Virus record (IMG/VR): IMGVR_UViG_3300009080_000035
Span: 1 to 35,470 of that record
Reading direction: 5' to 3' (one strand)
Length of the DNA stretch: 35,470 nt
Source of the DNA: a virus
Shown here: piece after piece, positions 19,368 to 35,470 of the stretch
How the letters are laid out: the number at the start of each line of letters is the position of its first letter
How positions within the stretch are numbered: position 1 is the stretch's first letter
Position numbers and translations under genes: made by a program
Notes under the pieces: model-generated
Told to the model about the DNA's origin: nothing
The model's database searches: none
What the model saw: only the letters and a program-made list of their open reading frames with translations

Positions 19368-19373
19368 CTCCTT
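19368..19373 (-). promoter_or_regulatory. Ribosome binding site deciding the primase-helicase TTG start
   Basis: The minus strand reads AAGGAG here, overlapping the TAA of the IMPDH-like gene and 9 bases before TTG at 19356-19358. The ATG at 19401-19403 has no comparable site, so the TTG is preferred. Confidence 0.55.
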
Positions 19374-20451
19374 AAGAGGAAAGTATGTGGGGGCGGCTTT
19401 CATTTAAGCCACTAGGAGTAATTCGAATAAAAGATACGCTTTCAGGATTTAGCTGATGAATATCAGTAAGCCCTAAATAAGATAAAGAAGAGCTAATTGC
19501 TTTTTCTAAATCTTGATGAAAATTAAAGTAAGTTACAGTTTGATATATTTTATTAGGAGATTGAACTCCTTCAGGAACAGAATTTATTTTGCCTCTTTTT
19601 TCTAATTGAAAAGAAGCAGAAGCTTGACCTCTATAATACTTATAAGGTTTTAAATCTTTACTTAAAGGAAAAAAAGTTTTCTTTGGGTATATCCAGCCTT
19701 CAGATTCTTTCAAAGAAGAAAGTATATTACCTAGCATTACACCATTGGCACCAGCTGAAAGGTATTTGACAATATCCGAACTATTTCTAATGCCGCCATC
19801 AGCGATAATAAAAGGCCGGTAACTATTATCAGGTAAATCTGAGAAGTACCTGTATATTTCGTATACAGCAGACAAGTTAGGATATCCAACACCTGTAACA
19901 ATACGAGTAGAACAAGCGGAACCAGGGCCAATGCCGACGCGAACATGAGTACAACCTGCATCAACAACATATTTTGCTCCTTCTACAGTAGCAATAGTAC
20001 CAGACATTAACTTTTTACACCAAGGTGCTTTTGAGTAAAGATTATAAATTTCCTGCAATTGAGATGTGGCGCCATGCGCCACATCTACAGAAATATTTAT
20101 CGAACTGTTTTTAGGCAAGTTGGATAATACGAATTCATAATCTTCATAAGAAGCACCAACAGAAAACCAAAAATTTTCATAAAAAGAAAATCTATTTAAA
20201 GCATAAAGTCTTTGCTCTTCATCAAGAAACCTACAAAAAACCGGACATTGTTTTGAATCAAGCATAGCTTTCGAAAGAGCTATGCCTGTAACAACATCCA
20301 TGGGACTACCAAAAACAAAAGAAGCGGAAGTTTTAGCAAGAGACCTAGAAGGTAACTTACCAATTGAAGGTTTTAAAAGAACATCATCTGTAGCAAGCCT
20401 TGGAGAAGAAGGTGTATCAAGAGAAAAAATCAAATCATTATGACTTATCAT
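19372..20451 (-). CDS. IMP dehydrogenase / GMP reductase family enzyme lacking CBS domains
   Basis: This encodes 359 residues and forms a single TIM barrel. Motifs in order are DDVLLKPSIG, FGSPMDVVTG, SVDVAHGAT, the signature VGIGPGSACSTRIVTGVGYP with catalytic Cys180, ADGGIRNSSDI, ANGVMLGN, YRGQAS, VPEGV and FIRITPSGLNES. The enzyme either oxidises IMP to XMP or reduces GMP to IMP. VGYP after the Cys loop and DVAHG lean towards GMP reductase. VPEGV and the C-terminal FIRITPSGL lean towards IMPDH. The Arg-Tyr flap typical of IMPDH is not seen. There is no CBS (Bateman) insertion. In a phage it would tune guanine nucleotide pools for replication or DNA modification. A weak AAGG precedes the start, which overlaps the upstream gene by 14 bases. 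Confidence 0.88.
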   Translation of the reverse strand: MISHNDLIFSLDTPSSPRLATDDVLLKPSIGKLPSRSLAKTSASFVFGSPMDVVTGIALSKAMLDSKQCPVFCRFLDEEQRLYALNRFSFYENFWFSVGASYEDYEFVLSNLPKNSSINISVDVAHGATSQLQEIYNLYSKAPWCKKLMSGTIATVEGAKYVVDAGCTHVRVGIGPGSACSTRIVTGVGYPNLSAVYEIYRYFSDLPDNSYRPFIIADGGIRNSSDIVKYLSAGANGVMLGNILSSLKESEGWIYPKKTFFPLSKDLKPYKYYRGQASASFQLEKRGKINSVPEGVQSPNKIYQTVTYFNFHQDLEKAISSSLSYLGLTDIHQLNPESVSFIRITPSGLNESRPHILSS

Positions 20452-21657: not shown

Positions 21658-22011
21658 TTACCCTTCCTCTTCGTCTGAATCTTCAGACATATTGAGTTGA
21701 GAAACTAATTCTTCAGCATCGGCTTTTGCTTCTTCAGTTTTTTCAGCAACAGCAGCTTGGAACTGTTGCTGAATCTCTTCCATTCTGGCTTCAGCAAACT
21801 TAGCAAAATTTTCATCAAGAGGAATTTGAATATCTTTTTCTTCGAGCTTTTCATAAAGGTATTCGAGAAGTAAAGATACTTGAATGATAGAATTGAAGTT
21901 ATAATCAACTCGAGATTCAATAGCTGAAGTAACATTTACAAAAAAGTTAAATGGTACTGGTTTGTCTTTCATTTCTTCTGGGATTTCAAATGTTTCGGTA
22001 TCGGTACTCAT
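21658..22011 (-). CDS. Acidic hypothetical protein
   Basis: This 117-residue protein starts at an ATGA overlap with the metallophosphoesterase gene. It is strongly acidic, with an N-terminal disordered run (EIPEEMKDKPVPF), a folded middle (FFVNVTSAIESRVDYNFNSIIQVSLLLEYLYEKL), a helical stretch (FAKFAEARMEEIQQQFQAAV) and an acidic tail (SEDSDEEEG). Acidic tails are common in phage ssDNA-binding or scaffold-type proteins, but no OB fold is visible here, so no function is given. Tight coupling on both sides puts it in the replication operon. Confidence 0.65.
   Translation of the reverse strand: MSTDTETFEIPEEMKDKPVPFNFFVNVTSAIESRVDYNFNSIIQVSLLLEYLYEKLEEKDIQIPLDENFAKFAEARMEEIQQQFQAAVAEKTEEAKADAEELVSQLNMSEDSDEEEG
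21661..21669 (-). promoter_or_regulatory. Ribosome binding site deciding the Cas4-like TTG start
   Basis: The minus strand reads GAGGAAGGG here, at the end of the upstream acidic-protein gene, with 7 bases to TTG at 21651-21653. No other plausible start exists near the N-terminus. Confidence 0.6.
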
Positions 22012-23081
22012 AGTACGCCTTTCTTTGTTGGTAAATGTGAACCTAAATAAATTACGGTAGAATCGTTAAAATTAGTTTTTCCAGTTGAGTCTTGATAAAT
22101 AATTGCATAGCCGTTCATAGCGTTTTTAAAACGAAGATCAGGTTGAAACTGATAAGGAAGTTTATGTGCCATAGCACCTTGCTCAATCAAAAGTTTTCCT
22201 GATACAACGCCTTTATACACTTTATGTGTATGCCCTACAACAATAGAATCAAAGTCATCAGTATGCATTCGTTCTGTAAAATGATCTAACAGTTTTACAA
22301 CTGTAGCGCCAGGATATTTTGAACCAAATCCGCTTGGGTGGCAAAATATAGTAGAGCCAATACGAACATACCAGGGATCGTGTCTTTGATAAGCAACATT
22401 ATCAAAATCAAGTTTTTCAACAAGCTCTGCTCGTTCATTAAGCTTTTCACCATTGCTGATTCTAAACAAAAGATCTGCACCAAAAACTGCTGCAGCATCT
22501 TGATTAAAACCAGCAGTCTTTACTGCACGAGTAGTTCTGTAATCGTGGTTGCCAGAAACAAGAACCACTTGTTCAAAATGATCTGAAAGATAATGCACAA
22601 GATCAAAAGCAATCTTGTATTCTTTTAAAGCAGCAATATTTTTACTTTTAGAAAAAGTACTAAAAATATAAGCATCAAGAATATCGCCATTAAGTACGAC
22701 TACATCAGCATCTTTATGTTGAATGAGAGCTTGTTGCATATCTTCCCAAAGGAAAAATGGAACATGTAAATCGCTAAAAGAAATAATTTTACGTTCTTTA
22801 GAAGTTGTAAGTCCTAAATCTTTTTTAACAGATTTAGATCTGTACTTTTTGGTATTATCTACAATGTAATCCCAAGTATCATCATATGTAGAAATTTTAT
22901 TATCTTTATTTAAAAGTTTATCTCTTGTTATTTTTCTTCTTACTGCAGGTTCAGTTCTAGAAGTAGGGAAACCAGGAGTATTTGATTCGCAGAAAAAAGA
23001 AATCTTATCAGCTATTTGCTGTGTAGATAAATCTTTAATATTTTTAATCAAGAAATTTTCTTCTTCAGGAGTCCATTTCAT
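22008..23081 (-). CDS. Calcineurin-like metallophosphoesterase with N-terminal SANT/HTH-like domain
   Basis: This encodes 357 residues. All five metal-binding motifs of the family are present: SFSDLH (Asp104, His106), NGDILD (Asp133), VSGNHD (Asn178, His179), IFCHPS (His248) and VVGHTHK (His284, His286). The first 55 residues (MKWTPEEENFLIKNIKDLS ... AVRRKI) look like a SANT/Myb or resolvase-type helix-turn-helix, suggesting DNA binding. The family includes the SbcD/Mre11 nucleases and many phosphatases; the DNA-binding-like head and replication context favour a role on DNA. The Mre11 capping domain is not seen. The start overlaps the DnaE gene by 17 bases and lacks a clear binding site, so translation may be coupled. 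Confidence 0.85.
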   Translation of the reverse strand: MKWTPEEENFLIKNIKDLSTQQIADKISFFCESNTPGFPTSRTEPAVRRKITRDKLLNKDNKISTYDDTWDYIVDNTKKYRSKSVKKDLGLTTSKERKIISFSDLHVPFFLWEDMQQALIQHKDADVVVLNGDILDAYIFSTFSKSKNIAALKEYKIAFDLVHYLSDHFEQVVLVSGNHDYRTTRAVKTAGFNQDAAAVFGADLLFRISNGEKLNERAELVEKLDFDNVAYQRHDPWYVRIGSTIFCHPSGFGSKYPGATVVKLLDHFTERMHTDDFDSIVVGHTHKVYKGVVSGKLLIEQGAMAHKLPYQFQPDLRFKNAMNGYAIIYQDSTGKTNFNDSTVIYLGSHLPTKKGVL

Positions 23082-24327
23082 TTTTTATATCAATTCTTTC
23101 TATTTTATTTAATATAAGTTTTACATCAGGATCAGTTGATTCAACTTTTACTCTAGCTTTTATTATATCGGCTTCTTGAATGCCAATTTCTTTTATCTTA
23201 GTCCATGTAGAAGGAAATACAACTATTTCTGCTGATCGAGTAGAATCGTCTATTTCGATAAAAGCCATAAGCTTACCAGCTCTAGTTTTTATTTCTTTAA
23301 TCGAAAGCACTACTCCAGCAACAGATGCATATAAACCAGGGACAAGAGTATCTAAATCGTCTTTTTCAATAGATATAAGATCTAATGGATGTCCACCAAT
23401 ATAACAACCAATATATTGAGCTTGATCCATAATTTGTTTAAGAGTAAGAGGAACAAATTTTGTTCTCTGTATTTCAGGAAAGACAGGAACATCATGTCGT
23501 TTTAAAGAAGGCAGCTTTTTGTAACCTGCTTCTTCAAGAGGCTCTAACTCTTCTTCGTAAATATGAAGATTATCTATATCATCTTCTTTTTGTTTATCTT
23601 TTGAAATTCTATTATTAATCTTTTTTATTTCATTACGAAGAAAATTACGTCGTTCAATTAAAGGAATAACAGTGGCATTATGTTGTTCTCTTTCAGCGTA
23701 ATCTATTTCTCGTTGTTTATAATCTTCAACATCTTTAATATATTTATATATTTCAGACGTAAAATCTAAAAGATCATTTCTAGAATAACCCATTTGATCA
23801 AAAGCTCCAGCATGCACTAAAGCTTCAAAAACTTTAGTATTTACTTTTTGCATATTGATTCTGTTTAAAAAATCTTTAACATCTTTAAAAGGAACATTCC
23901 CTCTAGCTTTTATAATAGCCTTAGCAGCTGTTTGACCTACATCTCTAATAGCATTTAATCCAAAATAAATTTCGGTGCCGTGAATAGTAAATTCGAAACC
24001 AGATTTATTTATACTAGGTGGGTGTATTTCTACACCAAATTTCTTAGCTTCTGAAATATACTCAGGAGCTTTTACAGCCCAGCTTTTTGGTTGTAAAGTT
24101 TTTGATCTAGTAGACATGAGTGCAGTAAAAAACTCTACAGGGTGATGAGCTTTTAAGTATGCACTAATATAAGTAAGAAAAGAATAGCTCACAGAGTGAG
24201 CTTTGTTAAAACAATTATGAGCAACAAGGCCATTCTTTAAAAAGAAATTATGATTATTAGTATAAGAAGAAATTCCAATATCGTAAACTTGTTGCTTGCC
24301 TAAATATTCTTTAGATACAATTTTCAT
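23065..24327 (-). CDS. dnaE: DNA polymerase III alpha subunit C-terminal part, fused to split-intein C-domain
   Basis: This encodes 420 residues. Residues 1-38 form a split-intein C-domain (MKIVSKEYLGKQQVYDIG ... LKNGLVAHN) ending in the splice-junction His-Asn. Residue Cys39 starts the C-extein, CFNKAHSVSYSFLTYISAYLK, a conserved DnaE segment. The extein then shows the tandem HhH region (YFGLNAIRDVGQTAAKAI, about 120-160), a charged helical stretch (195-270), the conserved IGCYIGGHPLDL, and an OB-fold at about 333-410 (SVAGVVLSIKE ... LMAFIEID). The PHP, palm and most finger parts are absent, so this is half of a replicase. It must join an N-half encoded elsewhere by protein trans-splicing. 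The ATG at 24325-24327 follows AAAGG and begins a proper reading frame, arguing against a degraded gene. Confidence 0.93.
   Translation of the reverse strand: MKIVSKEYLGKQQVYDIGISSYTNNHNFFLKNGLVAHNCFNKAHSVSYSFLTYISAYLKAHHPVEFFTALMSTRSKTLQPKSWAVKAPEYISEAKKFGVEIHPPSINKSGFEFTIHGTEIYFGLNAIRDVGQTAAKAIIKARGNVPFKDVKDFLNRINMQKVNTKVFEALVHAGAFDQMGYSRNDLLDFTSEIYKYIKDVEDYKQREIDYAEREQHNATVIPLIERRNFLRNEIKKINNRISKDKQKEDDIDNLHIYEEELEPLEEAGYKKLPSLKRHDVPVFPEIQRTKFVPLTLKQIMDQAQYIGCYIGGHPLDLISIEKDDLDTLVPGLYASVAGVVLSIKEIKTRAGKLMAFIEIDDSTRSAEIVVFPSTWTKIKEIGIQEADIIKARVKVESTDPDVKLILNKIERIDIKNEMDS
24214..24327 (-). other. Split-intein C-domain (Int-C), 38 codons
   Basis: This is the coding segment for residues 1-38 of the gene at 23065-24327. 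It shows intein block F (VYDIG ... HNFFLKNG) and block G (LVAHN followed by Cys). The terminal Asn would cyclise and Cys39 acts as the nucleophile. Compared from memory with the cyanobacterial DnaE Int-C, YLGKQ-VYDIG, HNF-LKNG and the junction are shared, with a 2-3 residue longer loop (SSYTNN) before HNF. A start codon directly opens the domain, which is what a naturally split intein looks like. Confidence 0.93.
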
Positions 24328-24339
24328 TTAAACCTTTCA

Positions 24340-24684
24340 TTAAGCGTAATGAGATAAACCAGCCCAAACTTTATTTGTAGCGTCTAATAAAACGAGACAA
24401 ACACCTTTAGTACTATTTAAAGTTAAAGTAGATTGACCATCTATAGTACCAGATTGATTGTAAGGCTGAATTAATAAATTACCTGTTCCTAAAGTAATAA
24501 AACTTACTATAGTTCCATTTGGAATAGTAGATGTGTCAGGCAAAGTAACAGTGTAATCGCTAGAAGAATCAATCCACAAAAGATCGTGTGGAGATTGTTG
24601 TGTATGTGAATAATTGCTTGTAAATTCAATAGGATTTACAAAAGCATGATTAGTAAAATTGACTTGCTTAGCAGGTATTTTCAT
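24340..24684 (-). CDS. Small fibre-tip-like beta protein
   Basis: This 114-residue protein follows a GGAG binding site and lies just after a strong terminator. The segment DYTVTLPDTSTIPNGTIVSF, then LLIQPYNQSGTIDGQ and CLVLLDATNKVW, is the beta layout common at the tip of phage fibres (LP ... G ... I-x-P-x-x-G-x-x-I-x-G ... W). The C-terminus of the long fibre protein at 32337-35470 follows the same layout. It may be a free fibre-tip or chaperone-like subunit. Its transcription must start after the terminator or come from read-through. It is the gene immediately upstream of the split DnaE half, with 12 bases between. Confidence 0.65.
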   Translation of the reverse strand: MKIPAKQVNFTNHAFVNPIEFTSNYSHTQQSPHDLLWIDSSSDYTVTLPDTSTIPNGTIVSFITLGTGNLLIQPYNQSGTIDGQSTLTLNSTKGVCLVLLDATNKVWAGLSHYA

Positions 24685-24695
24685 ATTAACTCCAT

Positions 24696-24726
24696 GAAAA
24701 AAGGGGGACTAATGCCCCCCTTTTAA
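24696..24726 (-). terminator. Rho-independent terminator, potentially bidirectional
   Basis: The plus strand reads six A, five G, ACTAATG, six C and four T. This gives a G/C stem flanked by A/T tails that also pair, with a T-run on either strand. On the minus strand the hairpin is followed by CCCCC and six T before the fibre-tip gene. It stands at the end of the GC-richer fibre gene, 33 bases or so after its stop. It should end transcription of the fibre block and separate it from the replication operon downstream. Confidence 0.88.
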
Positions 24727-24758
24727 TAAAAATATATTAAATAAAATTAATTATTTTT

Positions 24759-26213
24759 TTAAACTGAAAGTCCACCAGGAATCTTAACAACAGAGAAAGC
24801 GACTCTGATTTGGTCATCAGTATCAAGCTGATAACCTGCAACAGAACCATTCCAATGGAGTGTACTTGAAGGCTGAACTGCTGTGAGAGAAAGAGCTGTT
24901 GCTCCACTATCATTACTAAAGTAACAATCACCGAGCTTATCTGCAGTAAGATCTACAGCGATACCATTTACAAAAACAAGGAAATGAGTATCTGCGGCTG
25001 GGTTAAGCTGACTATCAATAGCGTAACCAGTTGCGTCGCCATCAGAAGATGTTGCGCTAGCAGTAGCAGTATCTACATGCTGAGTAGCAGCAATAAGACC
25101 ACTATCAGTTACAGCAATAGAAGCATAAAAAGCAGTAGAGGCTGAGTAAGCATCAACCTTAAGTTTGCCACCTACAATCTCAAGACCAGAAATTGTAGCA
25201 AGGTCTACGCTATGCACACCAGAAGCAGAGGCAATACCGTCACCAGCAGCAAGATCAAGAGCTGAAGAAATAGAAGCACTTCTAGTAACAGAAGAGGCAC
25301 TTACATCAGTAAAAGCAAAGTGGTCAGCAAGAGCTACTGTACCTGCTGTAACTTCACTAAGATCAAGAGAAAGAGCAGAACCTGCACCGCCAGAAAGACC
25401 CTCACCAGCAACTGTAGCAGCAATATGGTTCTCATCTACACCGGCATCTTTAATTGTAAGACGATCGAGACCATCAATTTCAATAGCAAGATTGTCAACG
25501 TTTACATCAAGAGTATTGCCAGTTTTAGTAAGAGCGTCACCTGCAGTTACTTGGCCAGCACCAGAGAATTGAGTAAACTCAAGTGCTGTAGTATCAAGAG
25601 TAATAGGACCATTTGTAGAAAGTACGAAACCTGCATCTGCATTAGCAACACCCTCTTCTACAAAACAGAAAGCACCTGCAGTTACTTCTGTATCAGTATC
25701 AAAATCTGTTGCACGAGTAAGTTCCCAAGCTGTGCTAATACCATCACCTACTTGAGTAACAGTATAAATACCATTCTCAGAAGCAGTTGAACGGTTCTTG
25801 ACAAGGATGCGATCGCCAAGAGCTACTGCAACCTGGTCAACAAGCAAAGAAGCTTGGGTAGGAGTTGACTCTGAAAGCACACCAGAAGAGTAAGAGAAAA
25901 GAGAATCAATATCTCCATCTGTAGTAGCAAGGTGTACAGACTGCTTAACATCAAGACCCTGAGCAACACTATCTGCGTAAGATTGAGCAGCTGATTGTGC
26001 AGAGTCAACATAAGAGATAACTGCTGCTGCTTCAGCAAGCATACCAGAAAGAGTGCTTGCGCCAAGAGTAAGATCTGTAGCCTTTACATCGCTATTAAGC
26101 TTAGCAAGTGTTACATTGCCGTCTTTAATTTTAAGTGTCTCTACTGCATCATTAGCTAGCTTTGCTGCTGCAATAGAAAGACCTCTAAGTTGTTTTCCAT
26201 GGATTTGAGCCAT
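24759..26213 (-). CDS. Ala/Thr-rich fibre or adhesin protein, GC-richer than neighbours
   Basis: This encodes 484 residues following AAGGAATTAAAAT. The start MAQIHGKQLRGLSI ... LANDAVETLKIKDGNVTLAKL resembles phage fibre N-termini. A predicted coiled coil (VDSAQSAAQSYADSVAQGL) precedes a domain with LVKNRSTASENGIYTVTQV, a pattern seen in many tail fibres. Repetitive beta segments follow (LTIKDAGVDENHI, LSLDLSEVTAGTVAL). The C-terminal domain has FLVFVNGIAVDL ... YQLDTDDQIRVAFSV, also echoed in the next two genes upstream. Sampled lines reach about half G+C against a quarter in nearby genes. High expression or foreign origin could explain this. It ends at a strong terminator, which fits an abundant structural protein. 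Confidence 0.75.
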   Translation of the reverse strand: MAQIHGKQLRGLSIAAAKLANDAVETLKIKDGNVTLAKLNSDVKATDLTLGASTLSGMLAEAAAVISYVDSAQSAAQSYADSVAQGLDVKQSVHLATTDGDIDSLFSYSSGVLSESTPTQASLLVDQVAVALGDRILVKNRSTASENGIYTVTQVGDGISTAWELTRATDFDTDTEVTAGAFCFVEEGVANADAGFVLSTNGPITLDTTALEFTQFSGAGQVTAGDALTKTGNTLDVNVDNLAIEIDGLDRLTIKDAGVDENHIAATVAGEGLSGGAGSALSLDLSEVTAGTVALADHFAFTDVSASSVTRSASISSALDLAAGDGIASASGVHSVDLATISGLEIVGGKLKVDAYSASTAFYASIAVTDSGLIAATQHVDTATASATSSDGDATGYAIDSQLNPAADTHFLVFVNGIAVDLTADKLGDCYFSNDSGATALSLTAVQPSSTLHWNGSVAGYQLDTDDQIRVAFSVVKIPGGLSV

Positions 26214-26224
26214 ATTTTAATTCC

Positions 26225-26238
26225 TTTTTCTAGAAAAA
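26225..26238. repeat. 14-base perfect palindrome before the GC-richer fibre gene
   Basis: TTTTTCTAGAAAAA is its own reverse complement and lies in the 27-base gap between two fibre genes, overlapping the A-run of the ribosome binding site region. It could be a weak operator or hairpin, but AT-rich palindromes of this length also arise by chance. Confidence 0.3.
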
Positions 26239-26240
26239 TT

Positions 26241-26609
26241 TTAAGGAGTGTTTGTTGTTGTTTCGGGAATCCAAAATTCTACTAAATCAGTACTATCAAT
26301 AGAATAAGAATTAGAATCAGAAGAATCATAAATTAAAGTATTAGAAGCATTAGGGTGGATAGAGATAAGTCTATTTTCTACAGGAACACCATTAACATTC
26401 ATTTTTACTTTAACATTCCCTAATAAATCTAAAGGTACTGGTACAGGTAAACTGAATTCAGTTATATCTGTAGTTTGAGATCCAAAATTGTAAACGAAGT
26501 GTTGCCAGTTATCACCAGTAATAACCAGACCATTTCGTTTAGCAAAACCAGGAGCAAATATTTTTGGTAAATCTAAAGCGTCTATTTTTATCTTTGTTTG
26601 TCTAGCCAT
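26241..26609 (-). CDS. Small fibre-associated beta protein
   Basis: This 122-residue protein follows AAGAGG. The C-terminal half (LGNVKVKMNVNGVPVENR ... STDLVEFWIPE) follows the same V-NG-I/V ... D-x-V-x-F pattern as the C-terminal domains of its neighbours, and probably forms a small beta sandwich used in fibre assembly. The N-terminal part contains LDLPKIFAPGFAKRNGLV. There is no signal peptide or membrane segment. It lies one base after the upstream gene, so it is co-translated. It probably belongs to the fibre complex; the specific role is unknown. Confidence 0.6.
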   Translation of the reverse strand: MARQTKIKIDALDLPKIFAPGFAKRNGLVITGDNWQHFVYNFGSQTTDITEFSLPVPVPLDLLGNVKVKMNVNGVPVENRLISIHPNASNTLIYDSSDSNSYSIDSTDLVEFWIPETTTNTP

Positions 26610-26610
26610 C

Positions 26611-26922
26611 TTATGCCTCTTCGTAAATTGCTAGAAGAGTCGAAGTAAGATCTATAGCTGAGTCAAAATTCAAAGTCAATAGATTGGTTGAAAGAGACCA
26701 GTCAACTCCAGGCTTTAAAATAATACCGTCTAAAGAAACAATTAAAGTTTCTAAAACTGGTTGAGGATTTAATTCAAAAACTAAGTCGCCTTGAGCAATT
26801 TGATTGCTAATATCATGAGTAATCATTCTATTAGAAGAAGAACCAGTAGTTGTATTTGAAGTAACATCTCCATTAATAGAGATATTTGAATCAACTATTG
26901 TAATTGGATATGTAAAAGTCAT
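26611..26922 (-). CDS. Small fibre-associated beta protein
   Basis: This 103-residue protein follows a strong AAGGAGGAG binding site. ELNPQPVLETLIVSLDGIILKPGVDW followed by LLTLNFDSAIDLTSTLLAIYEE is a compact beta module of the form V-x-NG/DG-x-x-L-x-x-G-x-D-[YW] ... L-x-F ... I, widespread in phage fibres. It corresponds to the C-terminal domain of the 484-residue fibre protein downstream. The strong binding site and the 51-base leader upstream suggest high expression. It may cap or trimerise fibres. Confidence 0.65.
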   Translation of the reverse strand: MTFTYPITIVDSNISINGDVTSNTTTGSSSNRMITHDISNQIAQGDLVFELNPQPVLETLIVSLDGIILKPGVDWSLSTNLLTLNFDSAIDLTSTLLAIYEEA

Positions 26923-26973
26923 ATTTTCTCCTCCTTTTTAATGAAGAGTTTAAAATATATTAGAAAAGAAAAT
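26923..26973 (-). promoter_or_regulatory. 51-base leader; possible promoter for the fibre sub-operon
   Basis: This is the largest gap upstream of the fibre genes apart from the terminator region. On the minus strand it reads TAATATATTTT about 25 bases before AAGGAGGAG, which could serve as a -10 region. No clear -35 is visible. No hairpin is obvious. The promoter call is weak, but the site is well placed to drive the three genes that end at the terminator. Confidence 0.25.
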
Positions 26974-28986
26974 CTACATCTTTCCTGAAATATAAAATAA
27001 ACCAGGAGAAGTGAGAGTTAAATTAATAGATAAATAATCGTTTGAAAGAGTAGTTATTGTAATATCTTTTGAAGAATTATCTGTCCAAACAGCACTTAAA
27101 GAGTTAGTTGAAAGAGTTAAAGTTGTAGATAAAAATTGATTATTAGAATCTTTTACTGCGACAAGTACATTAGTTTGAGTAGATGGAGCAGTATAAGAAA
27201 GGTTCTCTTCAATTATTATATGTAATTGATTTACACTTGCGGTTTGATGAGATGTAGTAGAAGAAGTATCTGACATCGAATATTTAAAAAGGGTGCCAGA
27301 TATGTCTGCTTTAGAAAAAGGATATCCTTGATAAGTAAGGCTTCTTGGGTTTTCTGTATCAAGGTAAGTTACATAAAATTCAGTATCAGACCTTCTAGAA
27401 AGAGAATAAGAAATTCCATCAAATGAAGCTTTTTTCTGCCAAAAAGAAACAGGATCAAATTGATAAGTTTCTACAAAGGTTGGTGTAGCTACAACAAGGT
27501 TTGTAGAATTAGAATCTAAGAAAAGCGTATCAAAAGCATCAACAGGTATTGTTTGCTCATGAGTAAAAGTAGTAGGAGTATCTATTCTAAAAGTTACAAG
27601 ATTTTTTGTCTCAGGAGTAGTTATAAAACGAGAAGCAATTTCTGCTTTTTGCTTAAAAAACAAAGACAAATGCTTTTGATTATTAGAATCAGTTATTATT
27701 TCCATGGAAACAACGCAAATACTAGCATTATTTAAACTTAATATAGAGTTTGATTCTTGATAAACAAAAGGCACTATTTGCTCAAATTGATCTACGAAAT
27801 GATTTCTAATGGTTTCTGAATTAGAAAAAGTAATAGTTACAGGAGACATTTCAAAAGTATCTAAATCTTTGTCCCACAAAATAGCAACAATACTAAGTTC
27901 ATTAGAAGTATTGTATACAGGCATATAAGAAGCCCATATATTAGAAGTACCTGTGTACTCAAAAGCAGAAGGGCTGTAATTTAATTTAATTCTATTAGCA
28001 ATAGAAGTATAGTTATTACCTGAACCCCAACCTGTTGAAGCTGTGTAAGTGTGCAATACTGTAAAAGAACCAGTAGTTAAGTCATGTTCATAAAAAGAAT
28101 AATCAGAATTTATTGTAGGTGTACCGTTATACCAGCTATTATAAGAAGCTGAGTCTCTTTCTGAATCCACCATATAAAGGGGGTTTCCGGAAGTACTTAA
28201 ACCTATAAAAAATATTCTTCTAGTTTCTGTATAAGCAAGAGCCCACGCTGCGGTTGACTGAGGAGGAAGAAAAAATTCCCAAGAACTCCCTAAACTTACA
28301 GTTCCCTCTACTGCATCTGTAGTAAAAGGTAACCTTAAAATAGCTATTGTTAGATAATAAACAGAATTGTTATTATTTATATAATAATTAAAATAACCAA
28401 AAAAATAAATGTGTCTATTTTGAAGATCCACCCAATAAGGATGCACAAAACCAGATCTTACATATCTAGTAGAATAATAATAAGTAGGAATTGTTTGAGT
28501 AATTGAGTTTAAAAGATCTTCAGGAGTGTCTGTTTTGTAAAGAGTAATATCGTTATCAAAAAATGAATAATTTCCAATAACTTTAGGCTTTACATTAATA
28601 GAATAAGAAGTGCCATCAGTATCTTGAAAAGTGAAATTATTAGAAGCAACATTTCTCAATTCTTTATTTAAAACTCTGTCATGACTATTATTATGAAAAT
28701 AAGGAGTTATATGTTGAGAATAAGTATTCCAGTCATCTTGCTTGGTGGATCTTGGTGTAAAAGTAGACTTGACTGTAGAAGGGAAAAAAGAAGAATCCAT
28801 CAATACTGTATTAGAAGGGTTTTGAAATACAGTATTAACTGATTGCTTCACATTAGATTGAGCATCAGCGGCTTGATCTGCTGCGTAAATTTTTGCTTCA
28901 GAAGGTGCGCCAACAATATTATTTTTTCCAAAATAATAACCACCTGCAGAACTTTTAAAACCAAAAATATCAAATAGTTTCTTCAT
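26974..28986 (-). CDS. Large fibre/adhesin-like protein with Ig-like C-terminus, paralogue A
   Basis: This encodes 670 residues. The ATG follows CGGAGAATTTAA and overlaps the upstream gene by 17 bases. About 550 residues of short beta strands rich in Tyr, Ser, Thr and Asn, with repeated W/Y turns (HPYWVDLQNRHIYFFGYF, WELFF-type blades), look like a beta-propeller. A C-terminal domain of about 90 residues follows (VNQLHIIIEENLSY ... TLTSPGLFYISGKM) and resembles bacterial Ig-like folds. The gene at 29887-31839 has the same plan and the same join, ADISGTLFKYSM against YISGTVADPELK. Likely a receptor-binding or fibre-tip protein. No enzyme motif is seen. Confidence 0.65.
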   Translation of the reverse strand: MKKLFDIFGFKSSAGGYYFGKNNIVGAPSEAKIYAADQAADAQSNVKQSVNTVFQNPSNTVLMDSSFFPSTVKSTFTPRSTKQDDWNTYSQHITPYFHNNSHDRVLNKELRNVASNNFTFQDTDGTSYSINVKPKVIGNYSFFDNDITLYKTDTPEDLLNSITQTIPTYYYSTRYVRSGFVHPYWVDLQNRHIYFFGYFNYYINNNNSVYYLTIAILRLPFTTDAVEGTVSLGSSWEFFLPPQSTAAWALAYTETRRIFFIGLSTSGNPLYMVDSERDSASYNSWYNGTPTINSDYSFYEHDLTTGSFTVLHTYTASTGWGSGNNYTSIANRIKLNYSPSAFEYTGTSNIWASYMPVYNTSNELSIVAILWDKDLDTFEMSPVTITFSNSETIRNHFVDQFEQIVPFVYQESNSILSLNNASICVVSMEIITDSNNQKHLSLFFKQKAEIASRFITTPETKNLVTFRIDTPTTFTHEQTIPVDAFDTLFLDSNSTNLVVATPTFVETYQFDPVSFWQKKASFDGISYSLSRRSDTEFYVTYLDTENPRSLTYQGYPFSKADISGTLFKYSMSDTSSTTSHQTASVNQLHIIIEENLSYTAPSTQTNVLVAVKDSNNQFLSTTLTLSTNSLSAVWTDNSSKDITITTLSNDYLSINLTLTSPGLFYISGKM

Positions 28987-29167
28987 TTAAATTCTCCGGA
29001 AGTTCTTCTTTTTGCTCAGGGTAGTTGGCATTGTACCAATCTAAAGCTTCTTGTTCGGAAAGAAACGGGGCTCCGTTTACTTTAGATGGATTGCCTCTAG
29101 TTTTCATGATTAGTTTTTCATCTTCATAAACATGAAGAGAGCCACCAAAAAATTTTAATTCTTTCAT
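28970..29167 (-). CDS. Small hypothetical protein in the fibre operon
   Basis: This 65-residue protein has a short beta hairpin (MKELKFFGGSLHVYEDEK), a basic patch (MKTRGNPSKVNG), then FLSEQEALDWYNANYPEQ and an acidic tail. The EALDW-x-x-x-NYP pattern occurs in several small phage proteins next to fibre genes. Coupling to the downstream adhesin (17-base overlap) suggests a dedicated partner or chaperone. The binding site is weak. Function is unknown. Confidence 0.55.
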   Translation of the reverse strand: MKELKFFGGSLHVYEDEKLIMKTRGNPSKVNGAPFLSEQEALDWYNANYPEQKEELPENLNEETI

Positions 29168-29170
29168 TTT

Positions 29171-29875
29171 TTAAGCCCAGAATTCTTTAAGAGTTATAAT
29201 TGTAATATCAGAAGGATTTGGAGGAGTATAAGTAGAAGCAACAACATCTTCAATTTGAACAATATAATTAGTTTCTAAATCTAAACCTAAGTTTAAAGTA
29301 TCTTCTGTGTTTTGTATATATAAAGGATTATCTAATATAAAAGATCTATGTATTGAATAAGCATTTTGGAAATTTTGATACGATTCTGGCGTATAAAGTA
29401 TTGTGCTTTCAGTAGAAGAAGAAGATTTGAATGTAGAAGTAACAATAGAAGGAGAAAGAGAAGTAATAGTTTGGGATATTATAAACTGAGTAGAATTATA
29501 ATATGTTTCTAAAACATCATAATCCTCAGTTTTTTCTGGTTGAATATTTAAAGTAATAATAGAATCGTATTCTATTTGAGTTTCAAATCCATCAGAAACA
29601 TATAATGTATTTGATGAAGAAAAATAATAATTATTTTCTGGAAGAAAAATAGTTAAAGGAGTGTAAGAAGAATCTGTGTAAAGTAAGTTTTTAGAAAAAT
29701 TATAATCTTGAGAATAAGAAAGATTATAAAAATTATTCTTAGTAATATAATTAGGAACTAAGGTAGAGATAAAAGATGACAGATATTTGTGAGTTTTAGT
29801 TTTATATTTATTATTAGGTTTAACTTGAAGTGAAACTGTATTTATTATTTTATCTAAAAATTGAAATTCTGCCAT
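29171..29875 (-). CDS. Hypothetical structural protein in the fibre operon
   Basis: This encodes 234 residues, following AAGGAG. It is very rich in Ser, Thr, Tyr and Asn, with beta strands and no membrane segment or signal peptide. The opening (EFQFLDKIINTVSLQVK) may be an N-terminal docking helix. Ser-rich tracts (TFKSSSSTESTIL) and the C-terminal IEDVVASTYTPPNPSDI could be flexible linkers. It lies between two adhesin paralogues with 3- and 11-base gaps, so it is probably part of the same fibre or tip complex. I do not recognise a family. Confidence 0.6.
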   Translation of the reverse strand: MAEFQFLDKIINTVSLQVKPNNKYKTKTHKYLSSFISTLVPNYITKNNFYNLSYSQDYNFSKNLLYTDSSYTPLTIFLPENNYYFSSSNTLYVSDGFETQIEYDSIITLNIQPEKTEDYDVLETYYNSTQFIISQTITSLSPSIVTSTFKSSSSTESTILYTPESYQNFQNAYSIHRSFILDNPLYIQNTEDTLNLGLDLETNYIVQIEDVVASTYTPPNPSDITIITLKEFWA

Positions 29876-29886
29876 CTTTTATCTCC

Positions 29887-31839
29887 TTAAATAGCGAAGC
29901 TAGCTGTAACGTTTATATAACCAGGGCCAGTAATTAAAACAGGAATAGAAGTATCTTGAATAGCAGAAGTTGTAGTAACAGTACTTGTGCTACCATCAGT
30001 AAAAGTCATATTAGAACCTTCAATACTGATTATAACATCTGTAGAAATACGTTGTCCTACATTGTCATAGGCATTTACTTTTAAAGTATTATTAAGAGTT
30101 ATGCCAGCGTATTCTTGATTAGTAGTGCCAAATTCAATAGTAGTAGAATAAGCAATAGAATTTGTAATTAAATGAAGCTTAAGTTCTGGGTCTGCAACTG
30201 TGCCTGAAATATAAGTATGTTTAACAGGCCATTGAGCAATTTGTTTTCCTACAATTTCGAGAGCCCATGTCCTACCAAAGCTATCGTAAGTCATAGCAGT
30301 AAAAATACCTTGCTCAGTATTAGTTTTGACCCAACCACCAGGAGTCAAGCTATAAAAAGAAAGTCCTGAAGAATCAATACTATTAATGACAGTGTTGTTT
30401 GAAGTGAGATAGTAATCAATATTAGTAGTAGGAGTAGTACTGATATATTCAAGAGAAGGTAAATTGGTTGCAGAATCTCTATTGATTTTATAACAATGCA
30501 TATTTAAAGCAGCATTATTGTTAGCTTCTGCTAAAGTAACAGCATATCCATGTCTAAATACGGGAAGTAAAGTAAGATACTCGATATTATTCAATACTGA
30601 ATAAAGAATTTTAGTATGAGTAGCTACCCTTACGCCTGAAGCCCATAATAAAGAAGTAGGATCATAATTAACTTTTGAAACATCGTCTACTAAAATATCA
30701 GTAAAAGTAATAGGAGTAGTAGTAGATAAAGAAGCGTCTACTGTTTTATCCCATTGAATAAGGAAAGGATTGAATGTTTGTGAAGCGTTTGTTGTAAAAG
30801 CAACTGATTCGTAATTCTTATTAGAAGAATTATAAATAAACTGACTTTGATAAGAATGCAAAGCGTTTAAATAGTAACCAGGAGCGGTCAAGTTAATTGT
30901 TCTAACAACAGAAGCAGAACCAGAAGAATTGTTAATTACAAAGAAAGCGTACTCAATTGGATCAGAATTAGCATTGATTCTAGAAAAAATGTGATTGTCG
31001 TAAGAATCTAAACCACAATAAACAATTTGCTCTTTTATGGGAATATTAGTAGCAAATTGAGTAACGCCGGAAATCAAAAGATTAGTAGCGTTTATTTCAC
31101 CAATGTAAGAATTACCATCGACGGGGAGACCAAAAGGAATAGCAAAAAGATTTAAAGCGACATATTCTGTGTAAGCGTAGCCTGCTCTAGAGTCATAGTT
31201 TCTTGTGCTCAAGCAATAAATAGTTCTATTTTCCATATCTACATGCAAAATAGAAAGGTTTGAACCATAATAAGAACTAGTGACAAGTAGAAGTTCAGGA
31301 GAAGTTATAACAGCTTCTGGGTTTTCTAGGTCAGGGCCAACAATAATTGAAATTTTTTCTTCGTCACCTCTGTAAGTAACTGCACCTGTGAATTCAGGAG
31401 AAAGCATGAAGGTATAAGTTTGACCTTGGTACTCATATACTTTCATAGGAGATGAAGATGTAGAATTATCTAAATTTGCAAATTTAGATGGCTCTAAAAT
31501 CATAGGGAAAATAGAGTTCTGAGAGTTATCTGTAAAGATATAATCATCGTGCATAGCTATTGCTTGAGGATAACGAGTATTTAAAGCAGAGTTGGTGTAC
31601 CAAGTATAGTTATTCTTTTTAAGATGGTTTAAAGCCTTGCACTCTTTATTAAAAAAAGGAACTAAACTAGTAGAGTCATAAGCATTACCGTCAATATAAA
31701 GCACAGAATTTGTTTCATCTTCAGCTAAAGCGAAGTTAGTGGTATTAGCATATGATTGAAAATATGCAGGTTGACCTAAATCAGGATCAGTAGTACTGGG
31801 TTGATAAGAAAGCCCATTGATTTTTTTAAGTATTGCCAT
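29887..31839 (-). CDS. Large fibre/adhesin-like protein with Ig-like C-terminus, paralogue B
   Basis: This encodes 650 residues, following AAGGATTAAAA. Repeated beta blades run through about 530 residues, with DMENRTIYCLSTRNYDS matching the VDLQNRHIYFFG blade of the paralogue at 26974-28986 in position and style. The C-terminal domain of about 110 residues begins YISGTVADPELKLHL and ends GPGYINVTASFAI, matching the paralogue end GLFYISGKM in place. A propeller-like body plus Ig-like tail suggests a receptor-binding protein. The pair may give two host specificities or form a hetero-complex. No enzymatic motif is apparent. The function is inferred from position and repeat pattern. Confidence 0.65.
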   Translation of the reverse strand: MAILKKINGLSYQPSTTDPDLGQPAYFQSYANTTNFALAEDETNSVLYIDGNAYDSTSLVPFFNKECKALNHLKKNNYTWYTNSALNTRYPQAIAMHDDYIFTDNSQNSIFPMILEPSKFANLDNSTSSSPMKVYEYQGQTYTFMLSPEFTGAVTYRGDEEKISIIVGPDLENPEAVITSPELLLVTSSYYGSNLSILHVDMENRTIYCLSTRNYDSRAGYAYTEYVALNLFAIPFGLPVDGNSYIGEINATNLLISGVTQFATNIPIKEQIVYCGLDSYDNHIFSRINANSDPIEYAFFVINNSSGSASVVRTINLTAPGYYLNALHSYQSQFIYNSSNKNYESVAFTTNASQTFNPFLIQWDKTVDASLSTTTPITFTDILVDDVSKVNYDPTSLLWASGVRVATHTKILYSVLNNIEYLTLLPVFRHGYAVTLAEANNNAALNMHCYKINRDSATNLPSLEYISTTPTTNIDYYLTSNNTVINSIDSSGLSFYSLTPGGWVKTNTEQGIFTAMTYDSFGRTWALEIVGKQIAQWPVKHTYISGTVADPELKLHLITNSIAYSTTIEFGTTNQEYAGITLNNTLKVNAYDNVGQRISTDVIISIEGSNMTFTDGSTSTVTTTSAIQDTSIPVLITGPGYINVTASFAI

Positions 31840-31848
31840 TTTTAATCC

Positions 31849-32337
31849 TTAAAGTATGTTGTGGTATTTGAAAGAAACAGTAAGATTTTGACCAGGAGAA
31901 ACAGTGCCTACAGAAGCAATGTCTACTTGGATATAATCTCCTTGTTGAAGAATTCTTTCTCCACCAACTATTTTTTTATTTGAAAGTGGTGGAATTGATA
32001 TATCGTATAATAGTTTGTCAGGAGAGTTTCCACCATTTTTTTGAACATAAATAACTACTGAATTACCTTCAGAAGCAACGCCTAAAGTAGCTGTAATTTC
32101 AATAATTTTTATTGGAGCTAATACTTGCCAAAAAAGGTCTCCCTGCTTTTGCTCAAGAGCACCAATAGTGTAGAAATGCTTATCAAGATAAGTAGGAAAT
32201 TCATTTCTGTTTTCTAAAGCAGAAGATTTAGCTCTTTGTTCAGTAAAATATAAATTACCTTTTTCTGAAATAGTTTCAGTAGTAAGATTTATATTTGGGC
32301 CGTAATTCCCATTTACATTAGTTATTTTATAAGACAT
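31849..32337 (-). CDS. Fibre-associated protein with NLYFTEQRAK motif
   Basis: This encodes 162 residues. The start shares one base with the stop of the long fibre gene (TAATG) and follows GGGAGATCC. The N-terminal ISEKGNLYFTEQRAKSS is a motif found in many phage tail fibres, close to a known trimerisation segment. The rest is beta sandwich (IKIIEITATLGVA, VVIYVQKNGG, LTVSFKYH) with a fibre-head look. It is probably a short fibre, fibre adaptor or cap acting with the long fibre protein before it. Confidence 0.7.
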   Translation of the reverse strand: MSYKITNVNGNYGPNINLTTETISEKGNLYFTEQRAKSSALENRNEFPTYLDKHFYTIGALEQKQGDLFWQVLAPIKIIEITATLGVASEGNSVVIYVQKNGGNSPDKLLYDISIPPLSNKKIVGGERILQQGDYIQVDIASVGTVSPGQNLTVSFKYHNIL

Positions 32338-35300
32338 TAGTGGATCTCCCAGTTTCCATCAAAACCAACAACAAAAGTAATAAATTGACCTTCTTCATTT
32401 AAAATAAAATTAAAAGGATCTCTATCTATAGTATCTCCAGAATAAGGTATCAAGGAGACAGTATAGTTACTGTATTGTTGCCTATATTTAAATTCTATTT
32501 TTGTACCAGGTATACCTAAAGCAATCTCTGGCAATTCTATTTCTAAGTTTCCGCTAGTAAGCGTAGTGGAAATACTGTAATAGTAAGAAAATTCAGCTTT
32601 AAAATCATAATTCATTGGTTGATATACAGCTGAACCAGAAAGTGATTTTAAAGTAGATTGTATAACATTAGGAGAGCTACTTGAGATTGTTTTATAAAAC
32701 CAATCAGGAGTAGCAGCATTTTGACTTGAAACTGGATCAGAAAGTTTTGCTAAAGTAACAATACCTTCATTTAAAGTAGTTGCGGTTGTATATGAACCAC
32801 CACCAAGAGACATTGTTGTAGAGACAATTCCTGTACCGTCATAAATAAGTGCTTGATTGACTATAAGATTGGAAGAACCTACCCTGGGAGTATCACCAGC
32901 TGAAAAACCAATATTTGTTAATGCTGCTGAACCTAAACCTAAATTAGATCTAGCAGTAGAAATATTAGTTAAATCATTTAAATTATTATTTGCAAATAAA
33001 ACTCCTGTAGGAGTAGAAGCTTGTATTGCAGTTTGTAAAGTTTTAGGAGATATAGGTTTATCTTCTAAGATACCAGCTAAAGCTTGAGCTTCTGTTGCAA
33101 AAGTAAGAGTAGTATTTATTCTGTGATTTGGATCATCATAAAAATAACTAATAGCAGGTGAGTGCTGGCCATTAATAAATAAAGGCGCCACAGCATCTTG
33201 AGTAGCTTCTATATCTATTGGAGCAGTACTAGAATTATTTGAGTTTTGATAATATCCAGAAAGTTTCCAATAAATAACACCAGAAAAATCTACTAATTTT
33301 GTTATTGAAATTTCTTGGTATTGATTCACTAAATCAAGAGAATTGTATATTTTTACATTATCAGAAGTGAGAATATATTGAGAAGGATCGACAATTAATT
33401 GATAAGTGCCTAAAGCGGTTTCTTTTCTAATTTTAGAAGTAGAATTTAATGGAAAAACATTAGTTAAATTTATTAATACATTTTGAGAATTATCTAAAGA
33501 TAAGAAATAAAATTTTCCTTCTGATAAATCAAAAGTATTAAATCCTGCAGAAACTTGTTCATAAAAAACAGAATCGTAGCCAGGATAAGCATAAGCAACA
33601 TTTTCAATCGTTGCGGTATCTAAATCATATTTATAATAATGAGGTAAATTAGAGAAACCTAAATTAGCTCTAGCTGTTTCATAATTACCTAAATTGCTAA
33701 AAGTATTGCTAGCATAATTTGAATGCAACAAGGAAGGAGTAACTGCTTTTGTTGAATTTGAACCGTCTCTAACCTCTTCATTATCAGCTAAAGCAATTTT
33801 ACCCCAACCATCGTAATCGGAAACTGTAGTTGGTTCAAAAGAGGCTCTTAATAAAGAGTTGTTGGCTAAATCAACTATCCATTGACCATTACCCTTTGTA
33901 ATAGTGCCTTGAATATCATATTGATCACCATTCCATCGCAAAGTTTGGTTAGTAGAAGAATAGCCGCTGTTGGGGCCAGCTGCTCCACTTTGCCACAACA
34001 AAGTAGGTCTAGCTATATCAGAAAGCCTAAATACAGAATCTCCCGCTTTAATGAGTTGAGAATCATTAGAAAGATCTGATGAGCTTAATTGTCTGTTGGT
34101 CCAGTTTTGTGAAATAGTAGCAGCTAATGGATTATAAACTACTACGTGAGATTCTGCTGGAGAAGTTATAGATACATCTTTTAATTCTGTTAACTCTAAA
34201 TCTTCTATGTCAGCTTCGAGCTTAGAAAAAGCTTCTCTAACATATTGAGTAGAAGCTGCTTTATTAGAGCTATCTGTTTGTAATTGAGTAGGTACAGTTA
34301 ATAAATCGATAGAAGCAACATCTATATCAGCATTATTAATAGTAGCAGATGTTATGTGTACATCATTAAATACATTTCGTTGAGTAAAAATATTTGTTTT
34401 ACTTTTAAAAGCAATATCTGCTTCATCAGATAAATCAGAAGAAGATAAATTTAATTTTAAAGCAAAAGTATCGTTTTGATCGTCATGTACCCAAGATACA
34501 GCTGAATGATTTAAAGTGTGAGCTGAAATAAAATTAGCAATTGTATCTCTTGCTTGCTCATCATTATAAAAGAAATGCTCATAACCGTTTGGAAGGTAGT
34601 AATGTTTTACTTGCATACCTTCGTTATTATTTAATGTAGAGCCAACTTTTATTTGTTTGGTATATGATTGATCTTGATTTAAAATATCATTTAAAGAAGA
34701 ATCATATACATTTAAATTACAATAAAGTTCGCCTAAACCATCTATATAATTAGAAGAATAGTTTAATGGAGTAAGGAACTCTATATCTTTGAGTGAAACA
34801 AATGTATTTGTTTCGTTTGCGACAATTACTGGAGTATCTGTTAAAATTTCATAAGATACATCATTAGAATATAGTTTTGAAGAAGATCTTAAAACTATTT
34901 CGCCAGTTATATGAGAGTTACTTATAGTAACCAAAGAATTGTTTGAAAGCTCTAAAATTCTATTATCATTTTTTAAATTAGAATTAGTTATTTTTATTAC
35001 AGAACTATTAGAAAAATCTAAAGTAGTAACATCTATAAATTGAGAATCTTGAATAATGACATTTATATTAGAATAAATAAGTAATTCATTATTAAAAGTT
35101 ACATTATCAAGAAGTAAAGTAAATGGAGAAGAAGTAATAGGTACTGTAATTGAACTTAAAGTTATGTCTTTAAAAACTATAAAGTCATCTTGGGTAGTAC
35201 CAGTAAGTTCAATATTTATATCTGCTGGGAAAACTACTGTTTCTTCAGTAGGTGCTATAAATATATAGCCTGGATTATTTATATTTATGGTAGGATCTGT

Positions 35301-35470
35301 TGCTTGAGCCCCATACCTCAAAAGAAAAGTAAGTGGTTCTTCAGAAGTGGGAAGCTTGTTGAGAATTAGTTGATCTTGAAGATTTACATTGTCAGCATAA
35401 GGTTGCGAGCCAATAACATAGTCAACAACCCTACGATTTTTAGCATCAATTGCATTTATGATATCTAAAA
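32337..35470 (-). CDS. Long tail fibre protein, N-terminus beyond the window
   Basis: The frame stays open from the stop at 32337 to the right edge. The TTG at 35319-35321 is only an internal Leu, because upstream codons (… NKLPTSEEPLTFLLRYGAQ) are in frame with no stop, so the gene is truncated here. At least 1044 codons are visible. A beta-helix-like repeat region (for example IQDSQFIDV, ITNSNLKND, ISNSHITGE) leads to fibre repeats with the motifs ETARANLGF (about 550 from that TTG) and STARSNLGLGSAALTNIG (about 790). The C-terminal tip has GNLEIELPEIALGIPGTKI ... FDGNWEI. This is the typical build of a long tail fibre, with the distal tip at the C-terminus. Confidence 0.85.
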   Translation of the reverse strand, partial: LDIINAIDAKNRRVVDYVIGSQPYADNVNLQDQLILNKLPTSEEPLTFLLRYGAQATDPTININNPGYIFIAPTEETVVFPADINIELTGTTQDDFIVFKDITLSSITVPITSSPFTLLLDNVTFNNELLIYSNINVIIQDSQFIDVTTLDFSNSSVIKITNSNLKNDNRILELSNNSLVTISNSHITGEIVLRSSSKLYSNDVSYEILTDTPVIVANETNTFVSLKDIEFLTPLNYSSNYIDGLGELYCNLNVYDSSLNDILNQDQSYTKQIKVGSTLNNNEGMQVKHYYLPNGYEHFFYNDEQARDTIANFISAHTLNHSAVSWVHDDQNDTFALKLNLSSSDLSDEADIAFKSKTNIFTQRNVFNDVHITSATINNADIDVASIDLLTVPTQLQTDSSNKAASTQYVREAFSKLEADIEDLELTELKDVSITSPAESHVVVYNPLAATISQNWTNRQLSSSDLSNDSQLIKAGDSVFRLSDIARPTLLWQSGAAGPNSGYSSTNQTLRWNGDQYDIQGTITKGNGQWIVDLANNSLLRASFEPTTVSDYDGWGKIALADNEEVRDGSNSTKAVTPSLLHSNYASNTFSNLGNYETARANLGFSNLPHYYKYDLDTATIENVAYAYPGYDSVFYEQVSAGFNTFDLSEGKFYFLSLDNSQNVLINLTNVFPLNSTSKIRKETALGTYQLIVDPSQYILTSDNVKIYNSLDLVNQYQEISITKLVDFSGVIYWKLSGYYQNSNNSSTAPIDIEATQDAVAPLFINGQHSPAISYFYDDPNHRINTTLTFATEAQALAGILEDKPISPKTLQTAIQASTPTGVLFANNNLNDLTNISTARSNLGLGSAALTNIGFSAGDTPRVGSSNLIVNQALIYDGTGIVSTTMSLGGGSYTTATTLNEGIVTLAKLSDPVSSQNAATPDWFYKTISSSSPNVIQSTLKSLSGSAVYQPMNYDFKAEFSYYYSISTTLTSGNLEIELPEIALGIPGTKIEFKYRQQYSNYTVSLIPYSGDTIDRDPFNFILNEEGQFITFVVGFDGNWEIH

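Follow-up and report, generated by a model that had tools for sequence, protein, structure and literature searches.

Sequence evidence for a phage replicase probably completed by a split DnaE intein

We analysed a 35,470-base virus record (IMG/VR record IMGVR_UViG_3300009080_000035; the window, i.e. the whole stretch of DNA under study), which carries a gene fusing the C-terminal half (Int-C) of a split intein to the C-terminal part of a DnaE-type DNA polymerase. The gene of the matching N-terminal half (Int-N) is found in a near-identical record of 123,667 bases, IMGVR_UViG_3300025684_000014 (hereafter G001), and it is very likely that this phage replicase is completed by protein trans-splicing. 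In the mechanism that we propose, the window gene would encode the C-terminal third of the replicative polymerase, made as an Int-C–extein fusion, and a separate gene about 12 kb away would encode the catalytic part ending in Int-N. Once translated, the two halves would bind and fold into one intein, which would excise itself and join ...FADY to CFNKAHS..., as in cyanobacterial DnaE. The case is built, at the level of sequence, on the presence of both halves with all their key residues, on the same site and split position, on the conservation of this arrangement in a phage family and on an intron that has intron-free relatives.

The Int-C–DnaE gene and its partner

The gene occupies positions 23065-24327, where the original prediction had placed it without giving a strand: the position stands, and the strand is now read as minus, the plus strand not being open in register. 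It comprises the following elements:

24333..24338, minus strand: GAAAGG, a Shine-Dalgarno-like box 6-11 bases 5' of the Int-C start codon
24214..24327, minus strand: Int-C, 38 residues, ending in AHN, with its own ATG preceded by an in-frame TAA; profile and structure-chain matches
23065..24213, minus strand: C-terminal DnaE extein, 382 amino acids plus stop, beginning CFNKAHS, with HHH_6 and OB-fold domains

The frame running from 24327 to 23065 encodes 420 amino acids, with MKIVSKEYLGKQQVYDIGISSYTNNHNFFLKNGLVAHN at the N-terminus followed by CFNKAHSVSYS; Int-C itself begins MKIVSKEYLGKQQVYDIG. The claim that a complete Int-C precedes Cys and FNKAHS at the cyanobacterial DnaE junction was confirmed by this translation, by the NCBIfam profile intein_Cterm (residues 14-39, 27.0 bits against a cut-off of 15.6, E 3.8e-6) and by the solved chains of DnaE split inteins, which the first 45 residues match (best 5ol7, E 2.6e-9). 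Indeed, the insertion site, FADY|CFNKAHS, is that of cyanobacterial DnaE. The DnaE part is matched by Pfam HHH_6 and an OB-fold domain, and the DnaE model NF005616 covers residues 1-196, Int-C included, with an E-value of 2.7e-69 and a score far below its cut-off; as expected for a fragment, no DnaE model reaches its full-length cut-off. The match of the window protein to Int-C and DnaE far exceeds chance. The start codon and binding site that Int-C had been predicted to possess are also in place: because a TAA lies directly before the ATG, with the GAAAGG box upstream, Int-C begins a gene of its own. AAGGA or GGAG occurs within 20 bases 5' of the Int-C start in 13 of 18 listed loci.

G001 encodes the same C-half protein (100% identity in a protein search), and the two records agree at 98.7% DNA identity across 29.6 kb (window bases 5824-35470). 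The DnaE N-half ending in an Int-N, sought as the partner, was found in this record: the N-terminal intein model TIGR01445 has a single match in G001, at 92652-92903, where the third DnaE piece ends, with 44.2 bits against a cut-off of 24.5. The junction reads ...LGFADY|CLAGDTEILLP...VDCTENHSFLL, with Cys1 and the block B motif T-E-N-H-S-F present, so that Int-N is neither missing nor mutated. From the end of its gene (92984) to the start of Int-C (105164) the distance is 12.2 kb; mapped onto the window, the partner lies just outside it:

35322..35470, minus strand: window edge toward the partner; the Int-N gene ends ~1.04 kb beyond 35470, mapped to G001:92178-92984 (L009:8178-8984)

When aligned, Int-N and Int-C group among phage and cyanobacterial split DnaE inteins. 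A contiguous dnaE elsewhere, which would have counted against the prediction, was not found in a DnaE-model search of G001 (a record that may be incomplete), the model matching the pieces of one dnaE only. Likewise, no family A (PolA) or family B (PolB) polymerase was matched in any of the 11 viral records searched, G001 included, the controls being positive. The reading of the window gene as a phage replicase half with a split DnaE intein is supported by these comparisons, and for the one replicase detected in it, this uncultured lineage appears to rely on protein trans-splicing.

A phage family with dnaE in several pieces

A scan of 2.9 million viral contigs for A-x-N|CFNK-x-H returned 23 stretches, two of them chance matches. 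The other 21 hold Int-C and DnaE and are split, since at most 64 open codons lie upstream of Int-C. Together with G004, found by its piece 2 (see below), the 21 records with Int-C, G001 among them, made up the 22 viral records examined. Both sides are present in 16, the C side alone in five and the N side alone in one (G004), the last six being fragments of at most 37 kb. Int-N and Int-C are on separate reading frames in all 16 records in which both sides are readable, and the arrangement is therefore inherited and no assembly fault. In 14 of these records, Int-N and Int-C lie 1.3-13.6 kb apart; in the other two (L173 and L178) their frames overlap. Int-N follows piece 3 in all 17 records with the N side.

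Besides this family-wide split, three features go beyond what the original prediction had put forward: a polymerase in more than two pieces, an endonuclease-bearing form of the intein (described in the next section) and what would be a combination of RNA splicing and protein trans-splicing in one phage polymerase. In G001, five stretches match the DnaE model, namely 87496-88695 (model positions 1-399), 90358-91056 (399-633), 92316-92657 (635-747) and two C-half stretches between 105269 and 106276. Two genes encode piece 1, with PHP and the beginning of the palm, and piece 2, which runs from shortly before PPDVDLD; a group I intron lies between pieces 2 and 3 (Rfam RF00028, 66.8 bits, gathering score 50). 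With the intron taken as L009:7056-8311 (1,256 bases), the exons join in frame and read SAISAINRPGPL, as in the intron-free relative L163. The intron holds a minus-strand frame of 324 amino acids, which has no Pfam match and which we read by eye as a homing endonuclease (VEYNGRQHYE). The catalytic piece of G001 would accordingly be encoded by two exons joined upon removal of the intron, and the N-terminal PHP/palm piece would be a third polypeptide, which probably joins non-covalently.

The main clade has the piece 1/piece 2 break in common, whereas L173, L175 and L178 do not have it. It is a conserved gene break (G001:87433-91071 and relatives) located in the DnaE palm just before PPDIDID, the catalytic Asp motif. 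Beyond FLNEGR, piece 1 has only a short tail, which is conserved in the clade (ATPLIFN... in most of the 12 rows compared); piece 2 opens with a conserved head of ~80-90 residues ending in ..GG(A/S)PPDIDID, which matches no Pfam family (L170 was excluded from the comparison of heads). A further, atypical split intein at this break was considered and rejected, given the short tail of piece 1 and a piece 2 head that lacks a conserved Asn ahead of the junction. Rfam searches around the break in L009, L163 and L168 gave no intron, and none of the four small genes in the piece 1/piece 2 gap of G001 matches a Pfam family. H41 and H44, considered as contiguous relatives of piece 2, were discarded: their DnaE is of the ordinary bacterial type and the records look chromosomal.

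Further probable or possible interruptions occur in these records. A probable group I intron lies in recA of G001 (L009:2741-3024; 30.7 bits, below the gathering score); recA is uninterrupted in three of four more distant relatives (L019, L020 and L021) and is broken at the same residue in L018 by a 0.94-kb insert (L018:6703-7645). An insert in the DnaE palm of G017/G022 (L173:2803-3626) contains an HNH-like frame (by eye) and gives a weak group I match (27.6 bits, E 0.003, below the gathering score); L173 is perhaps a second intron-bearing phage dnaE. In the first kilobase of G019 (L175, dnaE oriented on the plus strand), a further contiguous intein precedes CDIDLLKQHSEG in the PHP part of DnaE; it is cut by the contig end and, by eye, has LAGLIDADG-like motifs. 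Finally, the ribonucleotide reductase large subunit of G001 (81278-83026) matches only positions 197-795 of a 975-position PHROG and may also be in pieces.

Descent of the intein and competing explanations

In L173 and the near-identical L178, which comes from a different metagenome, the Int-N frame extends further and also encodes a LAGLIDADG domain (32.3 bits to Pfam LAGLIDADG_3, whose cut-off is 22.5). In L173 it overlaps the Int-C frame, the Int-C ATG being at 5322 and the Int-N stop ending at 5350. Cyanobacterial sequences for comparison came from bacterial and archaeal genomes, in which A-x-N|CFNK-x-H occurs in at least 117 stretches (at least 108 in DnaE, at least 9 by chance). Among the matches listed, all 108 DnaE stretches stand under cyanobacterial titles and two of these loci have an unsplit mini-intein at this site; they belong to the cyanobacterial metagenome-assembled genomes Oscillatoriales CG2_30_40_61 (L086) and Microcoleus CSU_2_2 (L138), and their inteins are either ancestral or re-fused. 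We chose 30 genomes from the 108 cyanobacterial loci listed, of which 29 gave a usable Int-N and one a partial match. The Int-N frame ends at most 143 residues after Cys1 in these 29, compared to 378 in L173.

G001 is up to 41% identical to the 29 cyanobacteria in Int-N and up to 60% in Int-C, whereas its C-extein, compared over the first 160 residues, reaches no more than 43% identity to those of the cyanobacteria tried. The Int-N of L173 and L175 reach 64% and 63% identity to cyanobacteria, respectively, and their C-exteins only 42-44%, with 35% to each other. By identity, then, the intein is closer than its host gene, as transfer would give. Near-identical rows (L172, L177 and L178) and the half record L165 were excluded both from the trees and from the pairwise identity count given below, and one cyanobacterial row with a short extein was omitted from the extein tree. 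In the latter, 28 cyanobacteria lie on one side of a branch (97/92); on the other, and apart from one another, are L173, L175 and the main phage clade, whose 11 members group at 100/100; as read from this tree, three separate DnaE lineages share the intein site. L173 and L175 have long branches, and the phages as a single group are not firmly rejected (p 0.07). The intein tree places G001 with other phage sequences and L173 with cyanobacteria (96/91); a topology with phages and cyanobacteria on opposite sides is, however, not rejected and even had the higher score. The outgroup inteins (gp41-1, NrdJ-1, IMPDH-1, Weasels2 and MT835601) are too distant to root this tree and did not cluster together.

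As to the virus, G001 carries seven tRNA genes, and searches of it gave matches to portal, terminase, major head and tail sheath. Its portal protein matches four phage records, all below 60% identity, with no near isolate in the phage collection; portal and primase-helicase searches retrieved distant isolate phages only, and a megablast search with 12.5 kb of the window gave no match. The C-half protein matches 618 phage records, again all below 60% identity. Reaction-centre genes of the psbA type, used as a test for cyanophages, were found in none of 17 records. Note that one deposited phage record, OQ572403.1 (L209, 'Pseudomonas phage Y1'), has a bacterial-chromosome-like stretch around an ordinary dnaE, which is probable contamination.

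The DnaE parts might instead work as non-covalent subunits, the intein halves being decaying relics that no longer splice. Such an assembly is plausible in principle because the same clade has the piece 1/piece 2 break, where searches gave no intein and no Rfam intron. Relics, however, would be expected to lose their catalytic residues, and these are kept: Cys1 and T-x-x-H-x-F are present in 17 of 17 Int-N (three near-identical pairs included), the F-block Asp, the terminal Asn and Cys+1 in 14 of 14 aligned Int-C, and K2, D16, I17, G18, N27, F28, N38 and Cys+1 are invariant across the 14 C-halves (N38 and Cys+1 partly by the search criterion). They are kept although the Int-N of the main clade are down to 30-58% identity (11 rows, 55 pairs), compared to 61-92% for the first 160 residues of the C-extein, Int-N being the less alike in 55 of 55 pairs. 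The fast divergence of Int-N around fixed catalytic residues points to selection on splicing, and we consider decay into relics very improbable. Several points do weigh against trans-splicing. The reaction itself, the role of its product as the main replicase and the way in which piece 1 associates are inferred from sequence. The window record is itself without Int-N, the partner being taken from a 98.7% identical record; the pattern A-x-N|CFNK-x-H, having been used to retrieve the matches, is no independent evidence in them; the Int-C of L163 has no in-frame ATG; the AlphaFold model of the catalytic piece (4 rows) was useless, with a mean pLDDT of 41.5; and a second polymerase could lie outside the records, since these are uncultured and classed linear.

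A cyanobacterial origin of the contig, as a genome fragment or a chimera with an ordinary cyanobacterial DnaE, is next to inconceivable. In its favour, both the insertion site and the intein correspond to those of cyanobacterial DnaE, but the portal, terminase, major head and tail sheath matches of G001, the position of its C-extein outside the cyanobacterial group and the 100% identity of the N-side pieces in L016 and L017, from two other metagenomes, refute such an origin unless the phage genes are themselves part of a prophage. Convergent splitting concerns the origin of the intein and is compatible with trans-splicing as its function: the same intein family would have invaded phage and cyanobacterial DnaE, each lineage then being split at the endonuclease position. 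Unsplit or part-split states do exist on both sides, since the endonuclease is still present on Int-N in L173 and L178, whose Int-N and Int-C frames overlap, and L086 and L138 are unsplit. Yet in most of the phage and cyanobacterial cases seen, the first residue of Int-C falls at roughly one position, ahead of K-I, which makes a single split simpler, and we find convergence possible but doubtful.

Trans-splicing, our preferred reading of how the replicase is completed, can be combined with these data on descent into a wider and speculative proposal, which as a whole we regard as unlikely. The split DnaE intein would be a phage-borne mobile lineage and not a cyanobacterial invention, carried at one site by three phage polymerase lineages; the overlapping-frame endonuclease form of L173 and L178 would show how the split arose; cyanobacteria would have got the intein from phages, or traded it with them; and the same polymerase would be built by RNA splicing, protein trans-splicing and subunit assembly. 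To our knowledge the origin of the cyanobacterial split DnaE inteins is unsettled, and a phage family split at the same residue, one form of which has a homing endonuclease, makes it testable.

Related systems and neighbouring genes

The features of a naturally split DnaE intein are found here in sequence: an Int-N with Cys1 and T-x-x-H, an Int-C with the F-block Asp, Asn and Cys+1, the insertion site and separate genes. The host protein, the insertion point (..EY|CFNKSHS in cyanobacteria), the split position and the canonical residues are those of the cyanobacterial inteins (Ssp, Npu). By contrast, the present intein is phage-encoded, its Int-C in G001 has 38 residues ending in AHN instead of ~36 ending in ASN or AAN, the polymerase has further breaks and two phage records keep a LAGLIDADG endonuclease. 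Split DnaE inteins are a working tool of protein trans-splicing, and the phage inteins, with Int-N only 30-58% identical to each other within the main clade, are diverged enough that they may provide orthogonal tools.

In 2009 Dassa reportedly described fractured genes carrying split inteins in metagenomic, mainly phage DNA, for eight enzyme types. These reportedly resemble the present case in occurring in phage DNA, with a split intein in a replication gene and homing endonucleases nearby. Here, by contrast, the halves are separated by 1.3-13.6 kb in 14 of 16 records, none of the 10 genes tested between them in the window and G001 matches a free-standing endonuclease, those identified being tail-fibre-like, and in L173 and L178 the endonuclease is fused to Int-N. 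Contiguous mini-inteins are present in the DnaE of Rhodococcus phage Weasels2 and of the gut phage MT835601, nearby in the same phage protein; unlike ours they are uninterrupted, and they are inserted at another point, FNK|SH, three residues from the split site. Similar DnaE matches were obtained in other Rhodococcus and Gordonia phages. In Weasels2 (NC_041887.1, L013), DnaE is divided into a PHP gene and a polymerase gene, the latter holding the contiguous mini-intein at FNK|SHS.

The Aes123 PolB1 intein, from the PolB of T4-like Aeromonas phages, is likewise a naturally split intein in a phage replicative DNA polymerase, but that polymerase is of family B, the intein is cysteine-less and the site is another (PMC11923092). 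A genes-in-pieces ribonucleotide reductase that arose by endonuclease insertion and whose subunits work without splicing (Friedrich et al., cited in PMC10448857) offers a model for the piece 1/piece 2 break, with the difference that the four small genes of the G001 gap are without Pfam match. A contiguous DnaE intein in Desulfonema is described as related to those of KSB3 and cyanobacteria (PMC6390638). By title, abstract opening and selected passages, a full-text literature search (including passages of PMC10343443, PMC7090010, PMC5874633 and PMC7765530) retrieved no earlier report of a split intein inserted here in the DnaE of a phage; the enzyme list of Dassa 2009 lay outside this search, which limits the claim to novelty.

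The genes on either side of the Int-C–DnaE gene in the window are:

22008..23081, minus strand: calcineurin-like phosphoesterase, the next gene, with 17 bases shared between its start and the end of the DnaE C-half
24340..35321, minus strand: nine genes between the dnaE halves; PHROGs tail-fibre-like at 24759-26213 and, weakly, at 32337-35321, the others with no identification

Because of the 17-base overlap, the DnaE C-half and the phosphoesterase gene may be translationally coupled. No Pfam or PHROGs match to an endonuclease was obtained in the 10 genes of the window/G001 gap, most of which match nothing, so that an unrecognised endonuclease is possible. Five large genes taken from four other Int-N/Int-C gaps comprise one LamG match, one collagen-like match and three with no match. 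Lastly, at 19372-20451 the replication cluster of the window includes a gene resembling IMP dehydrogenase/GMP reductase, which matches Pfam IMPDH over positions 111-345 of 345 with 159.5 bits; in phage metagenomes, IMPDH is among the known hosts of split inteins.
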